From assembly GCF_002369955.1 (NCBI RefSeq), contig NZ_AP014564.1, positions 370,893 to 434,892 on the forward strand: a stretch of 64,000 bases of DNA, in the 5' to 3' direction. Both the position numbers and the translations under genes were made by a program. Positions within the stretch are counted from its first letter, which is position 1. The number at the start of each line of letters is the position of its first letter. This document shows, piece by piece, positions 644 through 43,496 of this stretch. Origin of the DNA: Ichthyobacterium seriolicida. GTDB lineage: Bacteria; Bacteroidota; Bacteroidia; Flavobacteriales; Ichthyobacteriaceae. Under the pieces are notes generated by a model. The model was not told the DNA's origin, did not search any database, and saw only the letters and a list, made by a program, of their open reading frames with translations.

Positions 644-1303
644 TTAAAAATCATATGCTATTTTTAATCCCACAGAGTGTATATCATTCCTATCTAATAT
701 CAGATTCGGCTTTATAGATAGAGCAATGTCGGTATTGAAGCTGTATAGATGAGCATAAACTAAAGCATCTATTATATTGAGTACATATACTCCCGTTAAT
801 ACAATTAGTGATACATTTCTCAATCTAAGGTATATGTCCTGCCCCCTTAATAAAGTGTTTTCATTGCTGTAAGTGTCATAGAATTCATCTTTTTCGCCTT
901 TTTGTCTTATGAAATAGGCTTTTCTAAATTGTTCGTATTTCAAATCGTATATTACTCCATAGTATGCACAGAGACTCATGGCTGCATATATAACTGGTAT
1001 TTTCCAATAATCTTCATTGTAAACTTGTCCTAATCCTGGTAGGACCGAAGAATAAAAAGTAGCCTTTGAAGGTGATTTATATACAGTATTTAAAAGTTTT
1101 TTAATTTGATAGTCACTATCTTTTAGTTCAACGGCAGAACTTTCAATATTGTTACTTTCTATCTGATCGACAGAATTTTCATTACTGTTTTGTTCTATTT
1201 TATCATCAGACTCTTTATCATTGTCTAGCTCATCTATTTGAGCAAAACAAGAGTAAATAGGAAATATTAATATTATTAACAAGTGTATTTTTTTCAATTT
1301 CAT
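644..1303 (-). CDS. DUF5683 domain protein, putative secreted/membrane protein
   Basis: The function is unknown. The 219-residue product starts with a hydrophobic export signal (IHLLIILIFPIYSCFAQ) followed by an acidic, Asn/Ser-rich linker to about residue 65. The conserved part begins with SVLPGLGQVYNEDYWKIP near 85-105. The PGLGQ-Y motif and the following membrane-associated stretches are typical of DUF5683. Two or three hydrophobic segments (VIYAAMSLCAYYGVIYDL; VSLIVLTGVYVLNIIDALVYA) suggest membrane association, and the end (SVGLKIAYDF) looks like a beta-strand. It is packed between parB (18 bases) and dapB (3 bases), so it is almost certainly cotranscribed with them. A Cys in the signal region could make it a lipoprotein, but the motif is not a clean lipobox. 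Confidence 0.8.
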   Translation of the reverse strand: MKLKKIHLLIILIFPIYSCFAQIDELDNDKESDDKIEQNSNENSVDQIESNNIESSAVELKDSDYQIKKLLNTVYKSPSKATFYSSVLPGLGQVYNEDYWKIPVIYAAMSLCAYYGVIYDLKYEQFRKAYFIRQKGEKDEFYDTYSNENTLLRGQDIYLRLRNVSLIVLTGVYVLNIIDALVYAHLYSFNTDIALSIKPNLILDRNDIHSVGLKIAYDF

Positions 1304-11088: not shown

Positions 11089-11676
11089 ATGATAACTCAA
11101 ATAGAAGGAGAATTGTTAGAGAAATATCCGACTCAGTTGGTGGTAAAATGCGGAGGAATAGGTTATGAGTTGAATGTTTCTCTAAACACTAGCGAAAAGC
11201 TAGGCAGTGCTAAGGAAGTTAAATTATTAACTCATTTGCACATAAGAGAAGATGCTCATATTTTGTATGGATTTGCAGATAAATTAGAGAGAGAGATTTT
11301 CAAATTGTTGATATCTGTTTCAGGTATAGGTGCAACTAAAGCTATAGTTATGCTCTCTTCACTAAAGGTAGAAGAGATACAGCAAGCCGTCATATCTGAA
11401 GACGCCTCTGCCTTAGAGAGAGCTAAGGGTATAGGTAATAAGGCAGCTCAACGTATAATCTTAGAATTAAAAAACAAAATCCAAAACACTTTTGGTTTAA
11501 ATGAATTTGATAATGCCAATGGCACTAAGGGGATAACTAAAAATGAAGCATTGACAGCATTAGAAATATTGGGGTTCTCTAGAAAAGCCGTGGAAGTAGT
11601 ACTAAATAAGAAATTGAAAAACAACCCTGATATAACTGTCGAAAACTTAATAAAAGAAGTGTTAAGTGATATGTGA
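11089..11676 (+). CDS. ruvA: Holliday junction DNA helicase RuvA
   Basis: The tetrameric junction-binding subunit of the RuvAB branch-migration complex. The 195 residues show the N-terminal OB-fold (MITQIEGELLEKYPTQLVVKCGGIGYELNVS), the HLHIREDAHILYGF region near 63-76, the two helix-hairpin-helix motifs around LLISVSGIGATKAIVMLS and RAKGIGNKAAQRIILELK, and a C-terminal domain III (EALTALEILGFSRKAVEVVL) that contacts RuvB. The last 11 bases overlap the GTG start of sprA, which implies translational coupling. ruvA followed by sprA is a recurring arrangement in Flavobacteriia. Confidence 0.96.
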   Translation: MITQIEGELLEKYPTQLVVKCGGIGYELNVSLNTSEKLGSAKEVKLLTHLHIREDAHILYGFADKLEREIFKLLISVSGIGATKAIVMLSSLKVEEIQQAVISEDASALERAKGIGNKAAQRIILELKNKIQNTFGLNEFDNANGTKGITKNEALTALEILGFSRKAVEVVLNKKLKNNPDITVENLIKEVLSDM

Positions 11677-14600
11677 TTTCTTAAGAAAAAATCGTGTATG
11701 TATTATATTTTGTTTTCTATCTGTATTTATATGCAAAGAAGCTGTATCTCAAGTAGAAGAAGCTGATCGTGATCAATATGAAACACAAGATCAAGATGAG
11801 GATGCCTTCCAAGTGGAAGAAGCTGATGATCAAGATGAAACACAAGATCAAGATGAGGCTACCTTTCAAGGAGAACAAGCTGATGATCAAGATGAAACAC
11901 AAGATCAAGATGAGGCTACCTTTCAAGGAGAACAGGCTGATGATGATCAAGATGAAACACAAGATAGAAGTGATAGTGATACATTGCCATATCCTTTTAA
12001 AGAGGAGGTGGGAGGCTTGTATCTAAATAATCCCAGTTTTTTTTCCGATAGCATAATATACAATCCTCATAAAAGGGAAGTTACCATAAGAAAAAAAATA
12101 GGTGATTACCTCTCGCCAAATAGTGTAACTATTAGCGTAAAAGACTATCATGACATCATTCTACAAAAAAAAATAAATGATTATTTCAGGAGTAAGAGCT
12201 ACGGTTTCTTAAGAGAAGAAAAAAACACAAAGAAAAAGAGAGCATCTCTATTACCTCCTTTCCAAGTTCCTGGGAAATGGTTTGAAAATATATTTGGAGG
12301 TAATACTATAGAAATAGTCCCTAAGGGGTCTATAAGTGTTCAATTAGGACTGCTATATAACCATGTAGATAATCCTAAAATAACAGAGGCCAACCGAGGT
12401 ACTCTGAATTTAGATTTCGATCAGAAGATACAATTTAATGCGACGGCTAAAATAGGGACGAAATTTAAGTTTGACATAGGGCAAGACACCAAGGCTATGT
12501 TCGATTTTCAAAACCTGTTGAAAATAAACTATTCTGGAGAAGAAGACGATATTGTAAAAAACCTCAACATAGGCGATGTCAGTATGACAGTCAACAATTC
12601 ACTTATACGTGGAGCTCAGAGTCTGTTTGGAGTCAAAAGCGTTTTACAATTTGGAGATTGGACCATCTCTTCAGTCTTTTCTCAACAGAGGTCTAATAGT
12701 GAAAAAATAGATACTCAAGGAGGAGATGTGGTAAACAAATTCGAGATAAGCACAGATAAATACGAGAATAATAAGCACTTTTTCTTATCCCAATATTTCT
12801 ATCATAATTACGATGATTTTTTAAGTGAAATTCCTTTCATATCATCTGGAATAACAATAGTAGATATAGAGGTATGGATCACTAATAAATCCTCAACGGC
12901 TAACTCCAAACAAGACACTAGAAATATTATAGCTATCTCAGATTTGGGTGAGAATAATTCTTCATCAAAAGAAATTCTACCTGAAAATGGCATCAATGCA
13001 GATTTAAACCCTGAAAACATGTCTAGAGATGTTAGAGATTTTAGCAAGGCCTCTTCACTGCTTTTATCTAAAGGCTTAAGACAAGATTTAGATTTTATAC
13101 AGTTAGAAAATGCCAAGAAACTAAATTCAAATGAGTACACATTTAATAAAGAATTAGGATATATCTCATTGAATAGAAAATTAAACGATGACCAAGTCTT
13201 AGCAGTAGCCTTTCAGTATAATTACAATGGAAAAGTATATCAAGTAGGTGAATTATCTCATCAGGGAATCAACAACTCTGAAAATTTAGTGGTTAAGCTA
13301 TTAAAAAGTAAAATTATAGATGTAAATCACCCCACTTGGAAATTGATGATGAAAAATATTTATTCAATAGGATCTGCAAAAATAAATAAAGAGGATTTCA
13401 AACTAAACATACTGTATAAAGATGATCAAATCGGAATTCCTGTCAATTATATAAAAGATGGAAATATAAAGAGAGTACCTCTGTTAAAGGTTTTCAAATT
13501 AGACGTTGTAAACAAAGCATACAAAAGTGTATCAGATGGATATTTTGATTTTTTAGAGGGGATTACCATCGATAGCAAAAATGGAAGAATAATATTTCCT
13601 GTAGCTGAACCCTTTGGAGAATATCTAGAGCAAAAGATAAACGACGTGTCATCTGAAAAATACGTGTTTAAACAGCTTTATAACACCACTAAGTCAGAAG
13701 CAGAACAAAACATGAAATACAACAGATTTTTAATATCTGGAGAATATAAATCTAAGTTTTCCGATGGAGGCATTCCCTTGGGGGCTATTAATGTTCAAAA
13801 AGGGTCGGTAAAGGTGAGCTCTATGGGACGAACACTGACCGAAGGAGTAGACTATACAGTGGATTACAAAATGGGATTGGTCAAGATAATAAATCAAGAT
13901 ATAATACAATCTAACTCTCCTGTGAGTATCAACGTAGAGAAAAATTCTATGTTTAACTTTCAGACAAAGACCTTTATGGGGATAAATCTAGGATATCAAT
14001 TTAGTGATAATCTATTGTTGGAGGCCACAGTTATGAATTTAAGTGAGAGATATTCTGGACAAAAGGTAAGCTACAATCAAGAGCTTATAAAAAACACATT
14101 GACAGGATTTAATCTCAAATACAATAAAGAGCTCCCATGGCTAACTAGTTTTGTCAATAGCATCACCCCTTCAGAGACAAATACTCCTTCTAGTATTAGT
14201 ATCAAGAATGAATTTGCTTATTTTTTTCCAGGCACTAATGACAACAGTGGGGATAGTGCCTATATAGATGATTTTGAAAGCAGTATATCTAATATAAATA
14301 TCAAAACAGCAAACCAATGGAGCTTAGCTAGTACTCCTATAAACTTCCCTAAGGGAAGAGAAATGGGAAAGACCAATCAAGACAATAGAGCTAAATTGTC
14401 TTTCTATACAATAGATCCATTATTTTATGCTAATATCAGTTCTACGCCTCCCAATATAAGGAATGATAAGTCTTTTATTTCAACACATAAGACTCGACAA
14501 GTAAATAGCACAGAACTGTTCCCCAACAAGGATATATCAACTGGTAGTATAAACCTCATATCCACATTCGACATAGCTTTTTTCCCAGATGAAAGAGGTC

Positions 14601-17600
14601 CTTATAATACTAATGCAAAGGCCATAGACGATAATGGTAAGTTAAAAAAACCCGAAGAGAGATGGGGAGGTATCATGAGACCTTTTAAAACATCAAATTT
14701 TGAACAGAGCAATATAGAGTATTTGCAATTTTGGTTATTAGATACTTTCTCTCAAGATATGGGAGCTGATGAGAGTGGGGAGATATATTTTCACATAGGT
14801 AACGTATCAGAAGATATCTTAAAAGATAAGAGAAAGAGTGTCGAAAATGGACTGCCAGCCTTGGGTGGTGATCAAGGAACAATTAATACAGGAGTAGCTA
14901 AAGTTCCTTCTGTACAAATACTGTCTTATAGTTTTGACAATGACGATTCCTCGAGAAGAAATCAAGATGTAGGGCTAGATGGCTTTTCCGATGAAGAAGA
15001 AAAAAACATCGACATATACAGAGATTTTTTAAACAATATACCGAGTTCTGCTAGGAGTAAATTTATAGATGATCCAGCAGGTGATAATTTCGAATTCTTT
15101 AGAGGTAGTCATCACGATGAGAATAACTCAGGGATAATAGAGAGGTATAAAAACTTTAGTGGAACAGAGGGCAACTCGCCTACTCTAGGACTGTCTAAAG
15201 AATCTTATATGACCTCCTCTAAGGTCTACCCCGACACTGAAGACATAGATAGAAATAAAACTCTAGATGAATTAGAGAGCTATGCCCAATACAAAGTGGG
15301 AATAAAGGCAAATATGAGTATAGGCAATCATAAGTATTTGGTCGACAAAAAAGTTACGACTGTCACCATGCCCGACCGAAGTGTACAAAAAAGCACTTGG
15401 TATCAATTTAAGATTCCACTGCAAAACCCCTCTGAAAAAATAGGTGGTTTTTCCGATTTCAGATCGGTGAGATATGTCAGAATGATTTTCAAAAAGTTTA
15501 GAAAGCCTATAGTTTTCAGGTTTGCTAAAATGGATTTTATGCGTGGAGAATGGAGGAGGTTCAAAAAAGATTTAAAAGATGAAGACAGTGATATGATCAT
15601 CAATAGCGATTATACTTCTTTTGATGTAAGAGCTATAAACTTAGAAGAAAATGAAAACAGAACACCTATTCCATACACATTACCTCCTGGGGTACAAAGA
15701 GAGAAACAACACGATAACACTAGAGTAATAAGACAAAATGAACAATCTATTTTACTGGATATTTGCAATATAAAAGAGGGGGATTCAAGAGCTATTTACA
15801 AGGGTATGAACATGGATTTGAGAAGATATTCTAGGATAAAGATGTTTATACATGCTGAGGCTGTAAGTGCAGATAAATTTCTAAAAGATGATGAATTAAA
15901 GTTTTTTATTCGTTTGGGATCGGATCAAACATCTAATTATTACGAATATGAAATTCCCTTGAAGATAACGCCCAGTGGAGAGAGAGATCCAAATTATATA
16001 TGGCCAAAAGATAATGAATTAGACCTTGAAACAGAGATATTGACAAGGGCTAAAATATCTAGAAATGAAGCTATAGTTTCTAATAAACATCCATCTTATT
16101 CTAAAGCTTATAGAAGTTTTAAAGGTAATAACACTATAACGGTAAAGGGGAATCCTTCATTAGCCGATGTGAAAGTAATTATGATGGGAATCCGCAACCC
16201 TGAAAATTCTAATAATGGAGATAAGTGTGTAGAGGTATGGTTAAACGAATTGCGACTTACAGATATAAATAAACAAGGAGGATGGGGTAGTAATGCCAGT
16301 GTAAAACTAAATCTAGCTGACTTGGCCGATTTGTATCTAGACGGAAGTATTGTCACTTCTAACTTTGGAGCGTTGAATGAAAAAAATGTAGATCTAAATA
16401 ATCACGGAATAAAAAAATACAACTTCACAACTAGTCTAAATACAGGCAAATTATTACCAGAGGATTGGAAAATAAAACTCCCTATATACTACTCCATTGC
16501 AGAGACCTTTAAAACACCTATGTACAACCCTACCAAAAACGATTTAAAATTAGAGAATTCAATCCCAGAAAAAGAGAATAGAGATTCTATTTTGAGTCTC
16601 ATTCAAGATTACCAAAAAGTGACGAGCATAAGTTTTACAGATGTAAAAAAAGGCAGATCAGAAGAGAGTCTATCTTTTCCTTGGGATATAGAAAACTTCT
16701 CTGTATCCTACCATAGGAATCACATGTTTAAAAGAAAAATTGACTTAGAATATTATAATGAAATAGAAAATAAGGGTAAGATAACATATAATTATAATGT
16801 TCCCGATCTAAGTTTCAGACCGTTTTATTACATTCCCTATATGGATGATTACGTGAAAGTACTCTCTGATATAAATCTTCGATTACTACCTTCGTCTTTA
16901 AGTCTAGAAACGGATTTTCACAAGGAATACATCAGTGAAAAAAACAGATCTTTAGGAAATGAACATCTGCTATTTGAACCCATATACAGCAAAAACTTCC
17001 GTATGAACTGGAAGGGTTTTCTCACACATAAAATCACTGATAATTTAAATGTGAAATACGAAGCCTTAAATCAGGCTATAGTACACGAATATGAAGAAAC
17101 TGAAATAAACCCTCAAACTGGAATTCTCTATACCGATAATGAAAAAAGCGATTATATGTGGAATAATATATTATCGTTTGGTGAGCCTCAAAAGTATAAA
17201 CACGGCTTTGAGCTCAACTATAATCCAAGCATTTCAAAGATACCCTTTTTACAGTGGCTAAGTGCTAATTATTCTCTAAACACTACTTATAGCTGGGATA
17301 CTTATCCTGTGATAAAACTACAAGACAAACTGGGGAATACAATACAGAATTCTATATCTCATCAGATTAATGGAAAATTAACTATGAATACTCTGTACGA
17401 TAGCTTCGACTTTATAATTAATAGTTCAGATAGATTATTAAATAATGCTGAAAGCCTTGGATTCTGGCAGAGTATAGCTGATTACATAATATATGCTCTT
17501 ACTGGGGTGAAGGATTTAAATTTATCTATTAATGTAACCCAAGGGACTCTATTACCTGGTTTTTTACCTTCCACAGGCTTTTTTGGAATAGGAAATCACA

Positions 17601-18832
17601 AAGGGGTATCAGCTCCAGATTGGAAGTTTCTACTAGGTTTTCAAGATGATATAAGAGAAATGCTTGTGAGTGATAATCTGCTGACCACATATACCAAATT
17701 CAATACTCCTAGTAAAAACACCTTTGTTCGTAAAATAAATTATATGGTAGATATAGTTCCTTTTCCAAAACTGAGAATTAAGCTCTCAGCTGATCAGGTA
17801 TCATCTAATGATAGGGGCAGCATACTCAGGAATATAGGCACTGAAGCTGATCCTATATTCGCTAAACAATCGTATACTGAAAAAGGTAATTTTAGCAATT
17901 CTATAATATCTATAGGTTCTTCTATGACCAACTCTAAAGATATTTTTAATAAATTTTTAGAAAACAGAAAAATAATAGCTAATGAGCTAGCCGCAGAACA
18001 TTATCGTTCTAATAGTTATCCTTCTATAAATGGATATCCTTCTGGATTTAGTTCTAACAGTGAAAAAGTAATCTTATTGTCTTTTTTGCATACTTATTTG
18101 GATGAGGATATAAATAATCCTTCTTTGAGTTTCTTTAGGGATATTCCCATACCAAATTGGAGAGCGACTTATTCTGGTTTAAGAGATATAGTTTGGGTTA
18201 AAGATTATTTGAGGACTTTTAATATATCTCATGCTTACGAATCGGCATACAGCATAAATCAATATCAAAATAATCCGTTATACGACGAGAGTAATCCTAA
18301 TAAATTGAATAAGAATAATGATTTCATACAGCCCATTAATGTTTTAAATATAGCTTTAAACGAACGTTTTAATCCTTTAATAGGAATAGATATAAAAACC
18401 AAAAATGACATCTCTCTTAAAATAGAAATGAAAAAGAGTAGAGCCTTAGTTCTGAGTTTAAAGAGTTATATGTTAAATGAGGTATCTTCTAAAGAATTGA
18501 TATTTGGGGGGGGGTACACAATACGAAATCTAGCTTTTGATGTAAAGACAAAGAAGAGATTTTTAAAATTCAAAAGTGATTTGAAGATAAAGTTTAATCT
18601 ATCTATCAGGGAGAATTATACCACTATGAGAAATATTAATAATAACTATGAAGATATTACAGGAGGAAGTATAATTTATGGTTTTACCTCTTCTGTTGAT
18701 TATTCTCTTACAGATAGGCTTAAGTTAGAGCTCTATTTCGATTACAATGCAAATAGTTATATAGTATCTACGGCTTACCCTACAATTATGTCTAGATTTG
18801 GCATAAAGGCTATTTACATCTTAGATAATTAA
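11666..18832 (+). CDS. sprA: SprA/Sov, outer-membrane translocon of the type IX secretion system
   Basis: Forms the giant outer-membrane beta-barrel through which T9SS cargo leaves the periplasm. The 2388-residue length matches SprA homologues of roughly 2300-2500. A GTG start at 11666 gives a basic N-terminus and a hydrophobic export signal (VCIIFCFLSVFICKEAVSQ). No ATG gives a comparable start. Residues about 30-105 are an acidic D/E/Q-rich tandem repeat (see 11761-11970). The family part then begins (PYPFKEEVGGLYLNNPS; KWFENIFGGNTIEIVPKGSI) and continues as beta-strand-rich sequence with typical SprA stretches such as AYIDDFESS and VWLNELRLT. It overlaps ruvA by 11 bases and ends just before a strong hairpin terminator. 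Confidence 0.95.
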   Translation: MICDFLRKNRVCIIFCFLSVFICKEAVSQVEEADRDQYETQDQDEDAFQVEEADDQDETQDQDEATFQGEQADDQDETQDQDEATFQGEQADDDQDETQDRSDSDTLPYPFKEEVGGLYLNNPSFFSDSIIYNPHKREVTIRKKIGDYLSPNSVTISVKDYHDIILQKKINDYFRSKSYGFLREEKNTKKKRASLLPPFQVPGKWFENIFGGNTIEIVPKGSISVQLGLLYNHVDNPKITEANRGTLNLDFDQKIQFNATAKIGTKFKFDIGQDTKAMFDFQNLLKINYSGEEDDIVKNLNIGDVSMTVNNSLIRGAQSLFGVKSVLQFGDWTISSVFSQQRSNSEKIDTQGGDVVNKFEISTDKYENNKHFFLSQYFYHNYDDFLSEIPFISSGITIVDIEVWITNKSSTANSKQDTRNIIAISDLGENNSSSKEILPENGINADLNPENMSRDVRDFSKASSLLLSKGLRQDLDFIQLENAKKLNSNEYTFNKELGYISLNRKLNDDQVLAVAFQYNYNGKVYQVGELSHQGINNSENLVVKLLKSKIIDVNHPTWKLMMKNIYSIGSAKINKEDFKLNILYKDDQIGIPVNYIKDGNIKRVPLLKVFKLDVVNKAYKSVSDGYFDFLEGITIDSKNGRIIFPVAEPFGEYLEQKINDVSSEKYVFKQLYNTTKSEAEQNMKYNRFLISGEYKSKFSDGGIPLGAINVQKGSVKVSSMGRTLTEGVDYTVDYKMGLVKIINQDIIQSNSPVSINVEKNSMFNFQTKTFMGINLGYQFSDNLLLEATVMNLSERYSGQKVSYNQELIKNTLTGFNLKYNKELPWLTSFVNSITPSETNTPSSISIKNEFAYFFPGTNDNSGDSAYIDDFESSISNINIKTANQWSLASTPINFPKGREMGKTNQDNRAKLSFYTIDPLFYANISSTPPNIRNDKSFISTHKTRQVNSTELFPNKDISTGSINLISTFDIAFFPDERGPYNTNAKAIDDNGKLKKPEERWGGIMRPFKTSNFEQSNIEYLQFWLLDTFSQDMGADESGEIYFHIGNVSEDILKDKRKSVENGLPALGGDQGTINTGVAKVPSVQILSYSFDNDDSSRRNQDVGLDGFSDEEEKNIDIYRDFLNNIPSSARSKFIDDPAGDNFEFFRGSHHDENNSGIIERYKNFSGTEGNSPTLGLSKESYMTSSKVYPDTEDIDRNKTLDELESYAQYKVGIKANMSIGNHKYLVDKKVTTVTMPDRSVQKSTWYQFKIPLQNPSEKIGGFSDFRSVRYVRMIFKKFRKPIVFRFAKMDFMRGEWRRFKKDLKDEDSDMIINSDYTSFDVRAINLEENENRTPIPYTLPPGVQREKQHDNTRVIRQNEQSILLDICNIKEGDSRAIYKGMNMDLRRYSRIKMFIHAEAVSADKFLKDDELKFFIRLGSDQTSNYYEYEIPLKITPSGERDPNYIWPKDNELDLETEILTRAKISRNEAIVSNKHPSYSKAYRSFKGNNTITVKGNPSLADVKVIMMGIRNPENSNNGDKCVEVWLNELRLTDINKQGGWGSNASVKLNLADLADLYLDGSIVTSNFGALNEKNVDLNNHGIKKYNFTTSLNTGKLLPEDWKIKLPIYYSIAETFKTPMYNPTKNDLKLENSIPEKENRDSILSLIQDYQKVTSISFTDVKKGRSEESLSFPWDIENFSVSYHRNHMFKRKIDLEYYNEIENKGKITYNYNVPDLSFRPFYYIPYMDDYVKVLSDINLRLLPSSLSLETDFHKEYISEKNRSLGNEHLLFEPIYSKNFRMNWKGFLTHKITDNLNVKYEALNQAIVHEYEETEINPQTGILYTDNEKSDYMWNNILSFGEPQKYKHGFELNYNPSISKIPFLQWLSANYSLNTTYSWDTYPVIKLQDKLGNTIQNSISHQINGKLTMNTLYDSFDFIINSSDRLLNNAESLGFWQSIADYIIYALTGVKDLNLSINVTQGTLLPGFLPSTGFFGIGNHKGVSAPDWKFLLGFQDDIREMLVSDNLLTTYTKFNTPSKNTFVRKINYMVDIVPFPKLRIKLSADQVSSNDRGSILRNIGTEADPIFAKQSYTEKGNFSNSIISIGSSMTNSKDIFNKFLENRKIIANELAAEHYRSNSYPSINGYPSGFSSNSEKVILLSFLHTYLDEDINNPSLSFFRDIPIPNWRATYSGLRDIVWVKDYLRTFNISHAYESAYSINQYQNNPLYDESNPNKLNKNNDFIQPINVLNIALNERFNPLIGIDIKTKNDISLKIEMKKSRALVLSLKSYMLNEVSSKELIFGGGYTIRNLAFDVKTKKRFLKFKSDLKIKFNLSIRENYTTMRNINNNYEDITGGSIIYGFTSSVDYSLTDRLKLELYFDYNANSYIVSTAYPTIMSRFGIKAIYILDN
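11761..11970 (+). repeat. Tandem 57-base repeat in sprA encoding acidic 19-residue units
   Basis: Units begin at 11761 (60 bases, diverged), 11821, 11878 and 11935 (partial). The 11821 and 11878 units are nearly identical over 57 bases. Each encodes roughly DDQDETQDQDEATFQGEQA. The repeat lies just after the signal peptide of SprA. The near identity of adjacent units points to recent slippage or unequal recombination. The period is a multiple of three, so copy-number change keeps the frame. Confidence 0.9.
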
Positions 18833-20181: not shown

Positions 20182-23100
20182 CTATTCTTTTATCAAAACT
20201 TTGATATCTTCCTTACTAAGGACATCTGATTTACTTAATACTTTAATTAAAATATCTAATTTCTGTTGGGCACTAGAAAGCTTTTCCTCAGTAGCAGAAA
20301 GCTTTTCATTTGTAACAGAAAGTTTTTTCTTAGTATAAAGAAGCTCTTCATAAACAGCTTGAGTAGCTGAAATATTTAAAGTGGTAAGTCCATCGTAATC
20401 TACTGATCGCATGTCGTCTACTTCTTTACCATAAACAAAAACCTTATTATTAGAATCTAAAACTTCTTCTATTAAAAATGTATTAGGATCTATAACGGCT
20501 TTTACTTTTACCTCTTTGGTTCCTTCACTTTCTATTATAATCTTAACAATATCTCCAATAGAAAAATTGTGAACCTTGTTTGTTGTAATAGTACTTCCTT
20601 CATTAGAAAAGCTTATTGATTTAGCTAATTCGTATACATTAGGGATAATACCTTTATTTATATCTATAACTTCTGGAACTATACTTTCTATCTGCTGAGC
20701 TATTACTTTTTTAAATGGTCTAACTCCACTTTCTATACTATCTATCATAGTATAATCTGTAATCTCTATATCCAAGAGTTTCTTTAAATCTTCTCTTCTA
20801 TTCGAGATACCTTTTATACTCTTGATACGTTTATCTGATGTAGCTAAAAATTTTTTCTCTGTTACAATACTATACTTGGCATATAGAGAAATGTCTTGAT
20901 TTGCACTTTTCAAAATCCCATCTAATGTACGCGAAGCGTTGTTTTCAAGATATGTTCCATTTTTTGACTCGGATAAAAATCCCTCTAGAATAACTTGACC
21001 TTTTAAATATGTTCTTTGAGTACCTATACCCCCAATAAATACTGTATTATTTCCTTTCCCTATTGCTCCATAACCTATAACTATCTCATTGAGGCTGACA
21101 TTCTGTTTCGCTTTAGCATCAGTTCCTATGAAAATAGAATTATTTGATTCAGTGAGAGCTGTTGATCCATTAGCAATATAATAACCAGCGCTACTTCCTA
21201 TAGCTATATTTTTATTTCCTCTAACTATATTACTTAAAGAATATGAACCTACCGAAGTATTGTTATTGCCATCAGTATTTTCTTTGAGAGAACTATGGCC
21301 AACTGAAGTATTATAATAGCCAGTGGTATTCTTTTCTAGAGAAACATTGCCAATTGAGACATTACGGTTGCCAGTAGTATTATTTTTGAAAGAACTATTG
21401 CCAACTGAAGTATTAGAATAGCCAGTAGTTATTGCGTTACCAGATTCTACGCCTAAAAAAATATTACTTCCACCAGTACCTGTACCTCCACTAGTTCCAT
21501 TACTGCCATTTCCTGACCATTTAGTTATGAGATTATTAGTCCCTACTTTTCGTAGGTTATAAGAACTAATATCTTCCCAATTAGGATCAGAAGGTGGGAT
21601 AGGGTTAGGGCCAGTGACAGGGATAGTGATAGAAGATCCTGTTCTCTTATAAAAAATCCCATCGTAAATAACTACATCGCTAACTTCATAAGTAACGCCT
21701 ATCATTTTACTTCTTTTGTTAAAACCTCCACTGTGCAATAAACCTCCTAAATGAGTAGATATAATACTACCTTCCTTACCTATGACTACAGTACTATCTC
21801 CTTTTCCTAACGCGTAAGTCCCTATAACTATCTCATTGAGGCTGGTATCTGTTTTAGCTTTAGAATTAGCTCCTATGAAAATAGAATTATTTGACTTCTT
21901 GAGATTTACTACACCATCAGCTGTTATAGAACCAGCAACAGATCCTATAGCTACATTTTTATCTCCATCTTTTATCCTATTTAAAGAATATGAACCTACC
22001 GAAGTATTCTCGTTGCCAGTTGTATTAAAGTAGAGAGATTTTATGCCAACTGATGTATTGTTGATGCCAGTAGTATTATCTTGGAGAGAACTCAGACCAA
22101 CTGAAACATTATAGCTGCCAGTAGTATTATCTTGGAGAGAACCCACACCAACTGAAGTATTAAAATTGCCAATAGTATTTTTTTTAAGAGAGTATCTGCC
22201 AACTGAAACATTACTATAGCCTGTAGTATTTTCTTCGAGAGAACTATCGCCAACTGAAACATTATTATTACCTGTAGTATTATTTAGGAGAGAAGCATCG
22301 CCAACTGAAATATTATAGCTGCCAGTAGTATTTTTTTGGAGAGAATTCGAGCCAACTGAAACATTACAGCTGCCAGTAGTATTATATCTAAGAGACCATG
22401 CGCCAAAAGAAGTGTTCCTATGTGCAGAGGTGATATTTTTTAGGGATTCCCAACCAACAGCTGTGTTGTTATTTGCTTTACCTACTACTCCACCAGACCC
22501 TATACCTAAAAAAGTATTACCACCACTTCCACTGCCTGCAGAAGTTCCGTTATTGCCGTTACCAGACCATTTAGTTATAATATTATTAGTACCTATTTTT
22601 ATAAGCGTATGTGCTTCTTTTATTTTTTCATCTAGGATTTTCCCCTGATTAGCTGATAAGGCACTTTTGTCATCATCAGAGTCTAAACTATCAATAATTT
22701 TTTCTGGTCCTGGCTTGCCAGGAGGCCCTGGAGAGCCTTGCGGACCAATTTGTCCTCTGTCTCCTTTTGGTCCTGCTGGACCTTGCTCTCCTTTAGCACC
22801 AGGAATACCTTGGTTACCTTGAGGACCTGCTGGACCTACTGCCCCTGTGTTTCCTGTGTCTCCTTTTTCCCCTCGAGGACCTGCTGGTCCTATTGGACCT
22901 TGGATGCCGTCTTTCCCGTTAATGCCAGCTTTACCAGTAGGACCTGCTGGCCCTTGAGACCCTACTGGACCTGTTTCACCCCGAAGCCCTGTTAGCCCTG
23001 GTGGGCCTTGTTTTCCTTCTTTACCTGCTGCTCCATCTGCTCCATCTCTACCAGCAGGACCTTGTTTACCAGGATCACCTTTTTCACCTGGCGCCCCTGT

Positions 23101-25074
23101 TGGACCTGCTGCACCTGTTTCACCTCGCTCTCCTCTTTCGCCTCTTTCTCCTATTGGACCCGCTGGTCCTTGTAAACCTTGTTCACCATCCTTGCCATTT
23201 ACACCATCTTTACCAGCAGGCCCGACGAGTCCTGCTGGTCCTCTTTCACCTTGGTCTCCTTTAGCTCCAGGGGGTCCTGCTGGTCCTTGAAGACCTTGGA
23301 TGCCGTCTTCCCCGTTAATGCCAGCTTTACCAGTAGGACCTGCTGGACCTACTGCCCCTTGAGGCCCTGCTGCACCTGTAGCGCCATCTTTACCTTTTGG
23401 CCCTTGAACACCAGTAGGCCCCGCTGGACCTGCTGGACCTCTGTCTCCTTTTTCCCCTCGAGGCCCTTGATCTCCTTGCGCTCCTGTTTCACCCTTTGCT
23501 CCTGCTGGTCCTATTGGACCTTGTAGTCCTTGCGCTCCATCTTTACCTGCAGGCCCGACGGGTCCTTCTGCTCCTCTTTCACCTTGGTCTCCTTTAGCTC
23601 CAGGGGTTCCTGCTGGTCCTTGAAGACCTTGGATGCCGTCTTTCCCGTTAATGCCAGCTTTACCAGTAGGACCTGCTGGACCTACTGCCCCTTGAGGCCC
23701 TGCTGCACCTGCTGGCCCTGTTTCACCCCGAAGCCCTGTTAGCCCTGGTGGGCCTTGTTTTCCTTCTTTACCTGCTGCTCCATCTGCTCCATCTCTACCA
23801 GCAGGACCTTGTTTACCAGGATCACCTTTTTCACCTGGCGCCCCTGTTGGACCTGCTGCACCTGTTTCACCTCGCTCTCCTCTTTCGCCTCTTTCTCCTA
23901 TTGGACCCGCTGGTCCTTGTAAACCTTGTTCACCATCCTTGCCATTTACACCATCTTTACCAGCAGGCCCGACGGGTCCTGCTGGTCCTCTTTCACCTTG
24001 GTCTCCTTTAGCTCCAGGGGGTCCTGCTGGTCCTTGAAGACCTTGGATGCCGTCTTTCCCGTTAATGCCAGCTTTACCAGCCGCACCTGCTGGACCTGTA
24101 GCGCCTGGGGGGCCCGCCGGGCCGGTTTCCCCTCCTACTCCATCTCTACCTGGTGCTCCATCTTCACCTTTTAGCCCTTGAGGACCTGTATTACCTTGAG
24201 CACCAGTGTCTCCTCTTGGTCCTGCTGGTCCCTTTTCTCCTGCAGGGCCTGGATTACCATCTTTACCAGGCTCGCCCTGTTTTCCTTCTGCCCCTGGGGC
24301 TCCTCTTTCACCTCTTTCACCTCTTTCACCTCTTTCACCTCTTTCACCTCTTTCACCTCTTTCACCTCTTTCACCTCTTTCACCTCTTTCACCTCTTTCA
24401 CCTCTTTCACCTTGGGGACCTCTTTCTGCCTTTATGTCTATCATCTGCTTAAGCAGATATCCTTGATGCGCTGATAAAACTTTACCAACCCCTCCATCTA
24501 AATTATCAGCAATATCTATTTTGTCTAATTTTTTCTCTTCTAAAACCCTTCCTTGACTAGCAGATAGAGCAGCTGATACAACTCTAGATCTCAAATTATC
24601 TATAACATTTGTTTTTGGGCTATTTGCAGAATAAAATGCATAAGGGACACTAAGCATTTGACTCTTTTTTATAAGAGCATTGCTATAATCATTTTTACCA
24701 GTCAGATCTATCTCTGATTTAATATAATATGAATACTCAGACCATGACAAATCAGACAATTTTGAATCTGAAAATCCTTCAGATCTAATACCTTCTCCTA
24801 TATTTAGAGTAGCTAAGCCATTCTTAGCTGTTTTAACATTCCAATGAACTTCAGAGTATACAACATCTTCTATCTTTCCATTTAAAAAATATATAGAAAT
24901 ACGAATACTAACTGTAGATTCTTTTAACAATTTATCATCTTTCCTAATCACTAACTGATAACTCAACTTATCAGGAAAATTCTTAGAAATAGAATCTATA
25001 CTTAGAAATGAAAAAAGTATAAATCCAAAGTAAAACACCAGTCTTCTTTTTATATGGTCTAAAAGTATTGTCAT
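20182..25074 (-). CDS. Giant collagen-like, YadA-head, S74-chaperone surface/fibre protein
   Basis: A predicted trimeric fibre or adhesin of 1630 residues. In order: a basic N-terminus and hydrophobic export segment (about 8-30); a beta-rich domain to about 150; two LSAxQG-type segments (about 165-215) as in phage tail fibres; about 570 residues of Gly-X-Y (about 218-788) starting with a 12-copy GER tract; a third LSANQG segment; a YadA-like beta-roll head with ten 17-residue repeats (about 865-1048); a CBM5/12-like patch (about 1125-1168); a shorter head of four repeats; an S74 intramolecular chaperone from SDKRIK (about 1411), whose Ser-Asp is the family self-cleavage site; and a C-terminal coiled coil. 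No T9SS sorting domain is visible, so the export route is unclear. The collagen part is clearly richer in G+C than its surroundings. IS-end sequences lie on both sides. Confidence 0.9.
21187..21420 (-). repeat. Short beta-roll head: four 51-base repeats
   Basis: Units of the type [17 protein letters not shown] repeat every 17 residues (51 bases), ending in NIAIGSSAG. This is a second, shorter copy of the head module at 21930-22475, preceded by the same lead-in ([18 protein letters not shown]). Confidence 0.85.
21930..22475 (-). repeat. Long beta-roll head: about ten 51-base repeats
   Basis: Units such as [17 protein letters not shown] repeat every 17 residues (51 bases), varying mainly at the positions after Val-Gly. 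The pattern (N-x-SVG-x-x-SL-x-x-NTTG) is that of YadA-type left-handed beta-roll heads, and the run ends [10 protein letters not shown]. Confidence 0.88.
22972..23331 (-). repeat. Collagen-region duplication, copy 1
   Basis: About 360 bases that recur at 23719-24078 (offset 747 bases, 249 residues). I see only a few differences by eye, for example cgacgagtcc against cgacgggtcc and gtcttccccg against gtctttcccg. The near identity extends through synonymous positions, so the duplication is recent or maintained by gene conversion. Confidence 0.88.
23719..24078 (-). repeat. Collagen-region duplication, copy 2
   Basis: The partner of 22972-23331 at a 747-base offset. A third, shorter relative of part of this unit lies around 23571-23715, so the collagen region has been built by repeated in-frame duplication. 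Confidence 0.88.
24302..24409 (-). repeat. Perfect 9-base microsatellite (12 copies) encoding (GER)12
   Basis: The plus strand reads cctctttca repeated 12 times without a mismatch (108 bases), encoding Gly-Glu-Arg repeats at the start of the collagen region, about residues 222-257. Perfect conservation of the synonymous positions argues for recent slippage expansion. Gain or loss of units keeps the frame. Confidence 0.95.
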
Positions 25075-41078: not shown

Positions 41079-43496
41079 TTATTTAATTATACTCACTGAC
41101 CCTCTATATTCTTTTTCGTCTAATTTAATCACATACCAATATGTAGCTACGGGAAGTAATATTCCATTATACAAGCCATTCCAGTGCTCATCTCTACCAT
41201 TATATCTTCTCAATATCTTACCTGTCCTATCAGCAACGACGATTTCTGCATCTGGATAATCTTCAATGCCAGAAATTTCCCAAAAATCATTTTTCCCATC
41301 TCCGTTGGGAGTAAATACTTTTGGCGCATAGATTTTTGGAATTTCTATTTTTTCTGAATAAGTACATCCGCGATTATCCTCTAAGGTTAAGACATAAGTC
41401 CCAGGATTTAGATACAATCCCTTTCTTATATCTTCTAACTTCAATTTAGTATCATCCAAATAATAGCTATAAGGAGATTCTGCATTTAACTCTTTGTCTA
41501 TGAAAAGATTTCTACCTAAAAGTCTCTTTACAAATTTTAACCTACCCTTAAACGGTAATACTTTAAATGTTTCAACAATAGTACAATTAGTCTTTTTGGA
41601 ATAAGTTGTCACACTGTAATTCCCAGGCTTATATACTTTTATGCTCTTTGTATTTTCTTTTGCTCTTGTACTCCATAGATAAGTAACCGAATCTAAGCTA
41701 CTAGTTAGTACAGCCATATTAGGAGAACACATCCTGATCTCTTTTTCAGATACAGAATTAGGAGGACCAACAGTCACATTAAACACTTCAGTATTAACAC
41801 ACTCATTTTCGTCTATTATCTCAACTGTATACGTTCCAGATTTATCTACTACTATGCTTCTAGTTTTCTCTCCAGTACTCCACAGGTAAGAACCATAAGC
41901 TGAATACTCACTTGTCAATATCTCATTTCCAGAACTGCCAGCACAAGCGATAATTTCTTTTGCTGGAATATTAATAGGACTTTTTACAATAATATCTTGT
42001 GAGAAAGTTACTGATTCACTACTAACTGCCTCAACTAAAGTTAAAGTGACTTTATAAGTTCCCTCATTTGCATACTGATGCTCAACAATTACATCTCTAG
42101 TAGAAGAATCTGCAAATCCAGAAACAGAAGGAGACCCATCTCCAAAATCCCATCCATAATATGCTTTATACTCTGGAGCTATAGAGGTCTTAAACTTGGT
42201 TTTGCCACCTACACAATAGTCTCTAGAAGAAAAATCATAAAAAAAAGTGGATACAAAAGAAGGTAATCCTTCACGAGATTTTTTATTTACTGCCAAATTT
42301 TGCGCCTGATCATTATAATTAAATGCTGGTGTATATTCTGAATCTGGTGATTCTATAACACCTATTTTTTCATCAACAACGGGGGGAATAGCTGGTGTTG
42401 TAGGATTAAACATAGCTGCATATATTTTATTATCTGGACCTAACTGCAATGCATTGGCATAGGATGAATCTCCAGGATTATCAACAGAAGCAGATGGTAT
42501 AGATATAATATTGTTTACCTTATCAAGGTCTACTTGAAAAAGATTCCCGCTGTATCTCTCTGTTACATATAAAAATTTTGAATTTGGAGAAAACTCTAGA
42601 CCATAATAACCATAATTTTCATTCTCTTTTACTTCCCCATTGTACTCATGGGAACTAAATTTATTTAAAGATGACCTAGAAGTTAACTTGCCAATTCTAT
42701 TGTTAAAACCAAAGACTTCTATAAACCCACGGTTTTTAGCAGAAATAGTGTAATCTGATTCTACAATAACTTTTCCGTCTCTTCCTAAGACATTGGGAAC
42801 AACAAGACCAAGTAATTTCCCATCTCTAGATGCCTTCATATAGCCTTCAGGGTTAATATGCTTCTTCCCTATAGAAGTCACAACAGGCTCTGGATCTATT
42901 CCCGTACTAGATATTTTATAGGAAAAAAACCTCCTAGAATTACGCTCATGTAAAACTAACCAAAAACTACTCTGATCATAGTGCTCTATAACAGCCATTT
43001 TATGTGTAAGACTTACACCGTTATAATCACCAGTAAACAAATCTGTATCCTTAGATTCGATATTGCCACCGCCAGTGGTCATATCTACAATAGCATATTT
43101 ACACTTAGAATTTGAATCTATATAAAACACATAATATTTATCATCAGTTGAACCTGCAGCCTTGGGAATAGGAACTATTATAGTCTGAGTGTTATTGTTG
43201 GCGCCACTTAAAAGTGATCCCGCCATTTCAGTATTATCAGCCTTCCATACCTTGTTACCATCTGTATAAAAAAGTAATTCCCCCAATACGCTGGAAATAG
43301 AGGCACAAGCCTCAGGAGAGATTAAATTACTATTACCCTTAGTTTCTATAGAGGGTGTTTCATAAGCATCACCAAACGTTATATCCGCTTTTTGACCAAA
43401 ATGCCAATTATAGGCACGCCCCCTCTGTGCATAAGAGAAGGAAACTGTAAAGGCAACTAATAAGGAAATAAAAAAAATACGATTATTAAACTTCAT
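41079..43496 (-). CDS. T9SS type B cargo protein with beta-propeller and PKD domains
   Basis: A predicted secreted surface protein of 805 residues. A signal peptide (FISLLVAFTVSFSYAQ) leads into a beta-propeller-like region (about 25-390; YGLEFSPNSKFLYVTERYSG), a PKD domain (about 400-500; YGWDFGDGSPSVSG, then HQYANEGTYKVTLTLVEA), two Ig-like repeats with the SYLWSTGEKTRSI / TYLWSTRAKENTKSI pattern, and a C-terminal type B (gliding-motility-associated) sorting domain that starts PKVFTPNGDGKNDFWEI and ends VATYWYVIKLDEKEYRGSVSIIK. The sorting domain links it to SprA in this window. No adjacent PorP-like partner is visible. Confidence 0.9.
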   Translation of the reverse strand: MKFNNRIFFISLLVAFTVSFSYAQRGRAYNWHFGQKADITFGDAYETPSIETKGNSNLISPEACASISSVLGELLFYTDGNKVWKADNTEMAGSLLSGANNNTQTIIVPIPKAAGSTDDKYYVFYIDSNSKCKYAIVDMTTGGGNIESKDTDLFTGDYNGVSLTHKMAVIEHYDQSSFWLVLHERNSRRFFSYKISSTGIDPEPVVTSIGKKHINPEGYMKASRDGKLLGLVVPNVLGRDGKVIVESDYTISAKNRGFIEVFGFNNRIGKLTSRSSLNKFSSHEYNGEVKENENYGYYGLEFSPNSKFLYVTERYSGNLFQVDLDKVNNIISIPSASVDNPGDSSYANALQLGPDNKIYAAMFNPTTPAIPPVVDEKIGVIESPDSEYTPAFNYNDQAQNLAVNKKSREGLPSFVSTFFYDFSSRDYCVGGKTKFKTSIAPEYKAYYGWDFGDGSPSVSGFADSSTRDVIVEHQYANEGTYKVTLTLVEAVSSESVTFSQDIIVKSPINIPAKEIIACAGSSGNEILTSEYSAYGSYLWSTGEKTRSIVVDKSGTYTVEIIDENECVNTEVFNVTVGPPNSVSEKEIRMCSPNMAVLTSSLDSVTYLWSTRAKENTKSIKVYKPGNYSVTTYSKKTNCTIVETFKVLPFKGRLKFVKRLLGRNLFIDKELNAESPYSYYLDDTKLKLEDIRKGLYLNPGTYVLTLEDNRGCTYSEKIEIPKIYAPKVFTPNGDGKNDFWEISGIEDYPDAEIVVADRTGKILRRYNGRDEHWNGLYNGILLPVATYWYVIKLDEKEYRGSVSIIK

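Follow-up and report, generated by a model that had tools for sequence, protein, structure and literature searches.

In F. johnsoniae, the N terminus of SprA, which is not resolved in the core structures, folds within a SkpA trimer (PMC10994853). The same study reports that normal transport needs this N terminus and that its removal affects transport as strongly as the removal of SkpA. The wild-type background in these experiments was Twin-Strep-tagged SprA; if the tag is N-terminal, as its name hints, this would in itself represent tolerance of an extension. The gliding fish pathogen Ichthyobacterium seriolicida JBKA-6T, the sole recognized species of its family, is reported to have gld and spr genes (PMC5331501). 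Here, we analyzed a 64,000-nucleotide stretch of its genome (the window), the assembly of which is a single contig of 1,921,407 bases, and describe an acidic tandem repeat at the start of mature SprA.

The sprA gene, which encodes the T9SS outer-membrane translocon (2388 aa), occupies positions 11666..18832 of the plus strand. It was identified by a full-length match to TIGR04189 (SprA/Sov; 2244 bits against a cut-off of 200, residues 120-2382) and by the Pfam family SprA_N (E=7.1e-174). It is the same protein as F. johnsoniae SprA/Sov (PDB 6h3i and 8gl8), which its residues 114 to 2383 match by sequence. The start codon is GTG, located immediately 3' of a stop codon, and the gene overlaps by 11 bases the upstream open reading frame (ORF) at 11089..11676, read by eye as ruvA. 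T9SS C-terminal signals of the TIGR04131 type were matched six times genome-wide, twice above the cut-off. A CHU_C type IX secretion signal ends an 805-aa PKD protein at 41079-43496 of the window (minus strand). No Rfam family matched above its gathering score in the whole 64-kb window.

The signal peptide comprises residues 1-28 (11666..11749, plus strand), with the hydrophobic core located by script and cleavage placed by eye near AVS-Q. It is followed by an acidic tandem repeat spanning residues 29-100 (11750..11965, plus strand), in which four units of 20, 19, 19, and 14 aa stand head to tail. In reading-frame units, these are copy 1 (11750-11809, 60 bp, QVEEADRDQYETQDQDEDAF), copy 2 (11810-11866, 57 bp, QVEEADDQDETQDQDEATF), copy 3 (11867-11923, 57 bp, QGEQADDQDETQDQDEATF), and the partial copy 4 (11924-11965, 42 bp, QGEQADDDQDETQD), all on the plus strand. 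TRF placed the array at 11749-11965 with a period of 57, 3.7 copies, 90% matches, and a score of 310. Codon shuffling gave best scores of 76 for sprA (200 shuffles) and 113 for the insert by itself (500 shuffles), which confirms that the repeat between the signal peptide and the first conserved residues is real. The 72 residues include 20 D, 13 E, and 17 Q, with a single K or R. The period (57, with one 60-bp copy) is divisible by three and the frame stays open, as fits an in-frame coding minisatellite.

A sequence-only reading of this DNA had described roughly 3.5 copies of a 19-residue acidic unit directly behind the SprA signal peptide, and both the unit and the copy number were nearly right. 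Its coordinates, 11761-11970, were also close, although the true array starts 11 to 12 bases earlier. Its observation that two copies are near-identical at the DNA level holds for copies 2 and 3 (11810..11923, plus strand), which agree at 54 of 57 bases by eye. The repeat also contains Q-A-D-D, which resembles a motif of Bacteroidetes surface lipoproteins, but by eye SprA has no lipobox, and a lipoprotein export signal was set aside.

The same reading knew of no such tract as a standard part of SprA, and the comparison of SprA N termini agreed. SprA was matched in 161 of the 196 genomes of the order, and N termini were taken from among the matches listed, the listed ones left unread being mostly matches that start far inside the protein. 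The 210 loci read, including that of I. seriolicida, came from the best 80 of 310 confirmed relatives among genome contigs, from 30 loci of an order search (I. seriolicida included), and from 100 further stretches out of 98 genomes. After four loci at contig ends were dropped, 206 usable N termini remained (204 distinct), with one genome per species and I. seriolicida as the sole member of its family. An internal N-terminal repeat was present in I. seriolicida alone (1/206), and 205 N termini lacked it. The self-repeat score of this SprA was 29; the runner-up scored 5, and shuffling this SprA 1000 times yielded at most 6. Of the 206 spacers between the hydrophobic core and the anchor, that of this SprA was the longest, at 179 residues (161 in the second longest, with a median of 111), and carried the most negative net charge (-26; next, -17). 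When the homologous part before the anchor was left out, the net charge was -34 compared with -12 for the next sequence. The three nearest SprA proteins among the matches listed (42 to 44% identity) have short spacers. Thus, as far as sampled, the repeat is private to I. seriolicida SprA. Among the literature titles listed, none concerned a tandem repeat in this part of SprA, and the passages of PMC12635249 consulted held nothing on the SprA N terminus.

An origin by copying from elsewhere in the genome was rejected. When 21 bases of the unit were searched for, allowing at most 3 mismatches, all four matches lay within the array (one match for the reversed control), and the best DNA match beyond the array reached only E=0.45. 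The N-terminal 178 aa of SprA had no match in the plasmid records.

An N-terminal alignment of 31 SprA proteins (that of I. seriolicida and 30 relatives picked from 209) placed the insert in a gap that separates the signal peptide from a conserved block, the first residue of which is D105. This block opens with D-S or D-T at residues 105-107 (window 11978-11986) in 29 of the 31 proteins. The pattern D[ST][AILVMT] was fitted at these residues by 25 of the 31; it is a Bacteroidota O-glycosylation motif. Residues 1-410 were modeled using AlphaFold with the 31-sequence alignment (mean pLDDT, 61.3; pTM, 0.31). In the model, the signal-peptide helix reaches residue 38, inside the first repeat unit, and residues 39-110 are predicted to have no secondary structure, with block-mean pLDDT values of 43 to 49 for residues 41-110. 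Residues 121-180 are predicted with block-mean pLDDT values of 74 to 95 and form three strands and a helix. The best Foldseek match of this predicted N-terminal domain was F. johnsoniae SprA in the Extended Translocon (8gl8_A, 235 columns), and the next three matches were SprA as well (126 to 132 columns). Since TM-scores by query length were low (0.18 to 0.21) and the rmsd to 8gl8_A was 22.6, the Foldseek result is used only to back the identification of the small domain.

Taken with PMC10994853, the alignment, pLDDT, and Foldseek results indicate that the first conserved segment, residues 105-183 (11978..12214, plus strand), in which the D-S/T motif is followed by the small predicted fold, likely corresponds to the N terminus that SkpA encloses in F. 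johnsoniae SprA. The insert would then sit at the very front of the SkpA-enclosed segment. The periplasmic N-terminal location proposed from the sequence is to be expected, judging from the SprA structures in PMC10994853. F. johnsoniae SprA lacks the tandem repeat; its alignment begins at its residue 34, which leaves no room for a comparable tract.

The host genome abounds in coding tandem repeats that keep the frame. Tandem arrays with a period of at least 10 and a score of at least 80 were counted in a 400-kb sample of the I. seriolicida genome, excluding the window. The sample held 71 arrays, of which 64 had a period divisible by three and 63 lay in ORFs of at least 120 aa. Equal samples from two other Flavobacteriales held 7 and 4 arrays, so the density in I. 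seriolicida was 10 to 18 times that of the controls. The window itself contains 5 arrays per 64 kb, below the rate of the sample. Without the period limit, the sample held 75 arrays, which were clustered (22/75 in one stretch, L284) and fell mostly in DUF285-like, collagen-like, and coiled-coil proteins and in proteins with repeats of 51 bp or longer (names mostly by eye); the genome-wide rate is therefore too high to be applied to conserved proteins. The arrays of these families share with that of SprA a period divisible by three, an intact frame, and near-identical copies. However, they mostly build repeat proteins, whereas in SprA the array forms a spacer within a conserved protein of the translocon. 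Two cases come closer. At the end of a group 1 glycosyltransferase (L278:5995-7335, minus strand), a 51-bp stretch coding for 17 aa occurs twice in tandem without any mismatch, and a DUF285 protein has a 27-bp repeat immediately behind its lipoprotein signal. In the window, a collagen-like protein of 1630 aa (20182-25074) contains a perfect 9-bp repeat in 12.3 copies. Loss of mismatch repair, judged by MutS, was rejected as the source of the repeats: MutS_I was found in the genome.

We consider the tract a lineage-specific in-frame minisatellite expansion in a SprA spacer, born of slippage and tolerated (probability about 0.65). "Tolerated slippage" had been one suggestion of the sequence-only reading, and it is the one we prefer in view of the in-frame period, the predicted disorder, and the repeat-rich genome. 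Its occurrence in 1 of 206 SprA proteins, its position in an alignment gap, the lack of predicted structure, the near-identity of copies 2 and 3, and the parallels beyond repeat-protein families in the glycosyltransferase and the DUF285 protein all argue for it. Replication slippage or unequal recombination would have duplicated a short stretch coding for Asp, Gln, and Glu in 57-bp steps, in a genome where in-frame coding repeats are frequent. The expanded spacer would join the signal peptide to the first conserved, probably SkpA-contacting segment. Two features presumably let the tract persist: mature SprA begins with a free end that is disordered and lies in the periplasm, and the unit is almost devoid of Lys and Arg, which would hamper Sec export. 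On the other side, the acidic content and the similar spacers in a DUF5683 protein and a symporter could reflect function instead.

These spacers bear on a possible role in export. ORFs with a signal-peptide-like start were scanned using ATG starts only, so that the GTG-started sprA lay outside the scan. At least 12 net negative charges in the 50 residues behind the signal were found in 3 of 87 ORFs of I. seriolicida (2/75 in the 400-kb sample and 1/12 in the window) versus 0 of 175 in controls (Fisher p=0.036). The three were a DUF5683 protein, a sodium:alanine symporter, and ExbB. The DUF5683 protein (window 644-1303, minus strand) is an outlier as SprA is, its spacer exceeding all others in length and acidity among 29 usable sequences of 30 homologue rows, and in the symporter the acidic spacer is, by eye, longer than in the two nearest relatives. 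In ExbB, the spacer resembles the SprA tract in its position behind the signal peptide and its acidic low-complexity character. However, it is family-wide in Flavobacteriales (median net charge of -11 in 30 rows; I. seriolicida ranks 3/30 in length and 7/30 in charge), whereas the SprA tract is private and in tandem copies. A host-wide habit of acidic spacers was thus only partly supported, by DUF5683; ExbB is ordinary for its family. Secretion is blocked by early positive charges (PMC5468347), so the acidic bias may be read as what survives behind a Sec signal, with no dedicated function. The low K/R count itself is weak evidence of selection, since the repeat copies are not independent. That the spacer actively aids Sec export, as an unfolded, Lys/Arg-free early mature region that speeds up a very large preprotein, is also consistent with the spacers in DUF5683 and ExbB, the scan, and the block by positive charges. 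We regard this as unlikely, given that SprA proteins of similar size are exported without the tract, that such a role would not need a tandem array, and that one of the three acidic cases is ExbB.

The sequence-only reading had also offered binding of calcium or of partner proteins, and neither gained support. SkpA is the known partner of the neighboring segment. Of two OmpH-like genes in I. seriolicida, which by eye are preceded by bamA and followed by murI, the first encodes SkpA (8.5e-34 versus 8gl8_G, against 0.0082 for the second gene). The 155-residue core of SkpA has a net charge of -2 and a pI of 5.4; the cores of 11 further loci of 29 range from -6 to -2 (the motif was matched in 12/30 in total), and the second Skp paralogue of the genome has a net charge of +2. 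Short SkpA is common where SprA has no insert, and no pairing of the insert with SkpA length was seen among the matches listed. Neither a basic SkpA nor a paired change in SkpA, as a SkpA-bound acidic element would entail, was therefore found, and a trap in which a basic SkpA chamber holds the acidic tail was rejected on the core charge and the SkpA length. This SkpA (L136:854-1387) lacks the long C-terminal extension of F. johnsoniae SkpA (341 aa); SkpA open frames of at least 260 aa occurred in one family, plus once elsewhere, among the matches listed. A functional tail in the Extended Translocon, lying within or around the SkpA chamber or the SprE base and adjusting how the periplasmic dish assembles, would suit an insert directly preceding a segment that folds inside SkpA and whose loss mimics that of SkpA. 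The lack of a basic SkpA core, the short SkpA in genomes with insert-free SprA, and the absence of the insert from 205 of 206 usable SprA N termini make it quite improbable. Still less likely is a lineage-specific extension of the Extended Translocon that alters the docking of SkpA and SprE on SprA, with repeat number as a tunable length. With 33 acidic residues in 72, the insert might bind calcium or another cation, but EF-hand patterns (PS00018 type) were absent from all of SprA, insert included, and RTX repeats (GGxGxD) from residues 1-120; we consider such binding highly improbable. An assembly artefact in the copy number is equally hard to credit. Tandem repeats are prone to miscounting and a single assembly was examined, but the genome was sequenced with 454 reads at 78-fold coverage (149,635,562 bases, 381,492 reads) plus mate pairs (PMC5331501). 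By division, the reads average about 392 bases and could span the 217-base array; moreover, the array keeps its reading frame and its copies are not identical.

Most simply, SprA of I. seriolicida is a known protein in a new, repeat-expanded form, and the effect on secretion biology itself is probably small. If expansion of a tolerated spacer is the correct explanation, the free N terminus of SprA, ahead of a segment probably enclosed by SkpA, takes a 72-residue insertion in nature, and this insertion would set a bound on the tolerance of the Extended Translocon. In addition, a small fish-pathogen genome so dense in in-frame coding repeats would be useful for strain typing and for studies of surface-protein variation.
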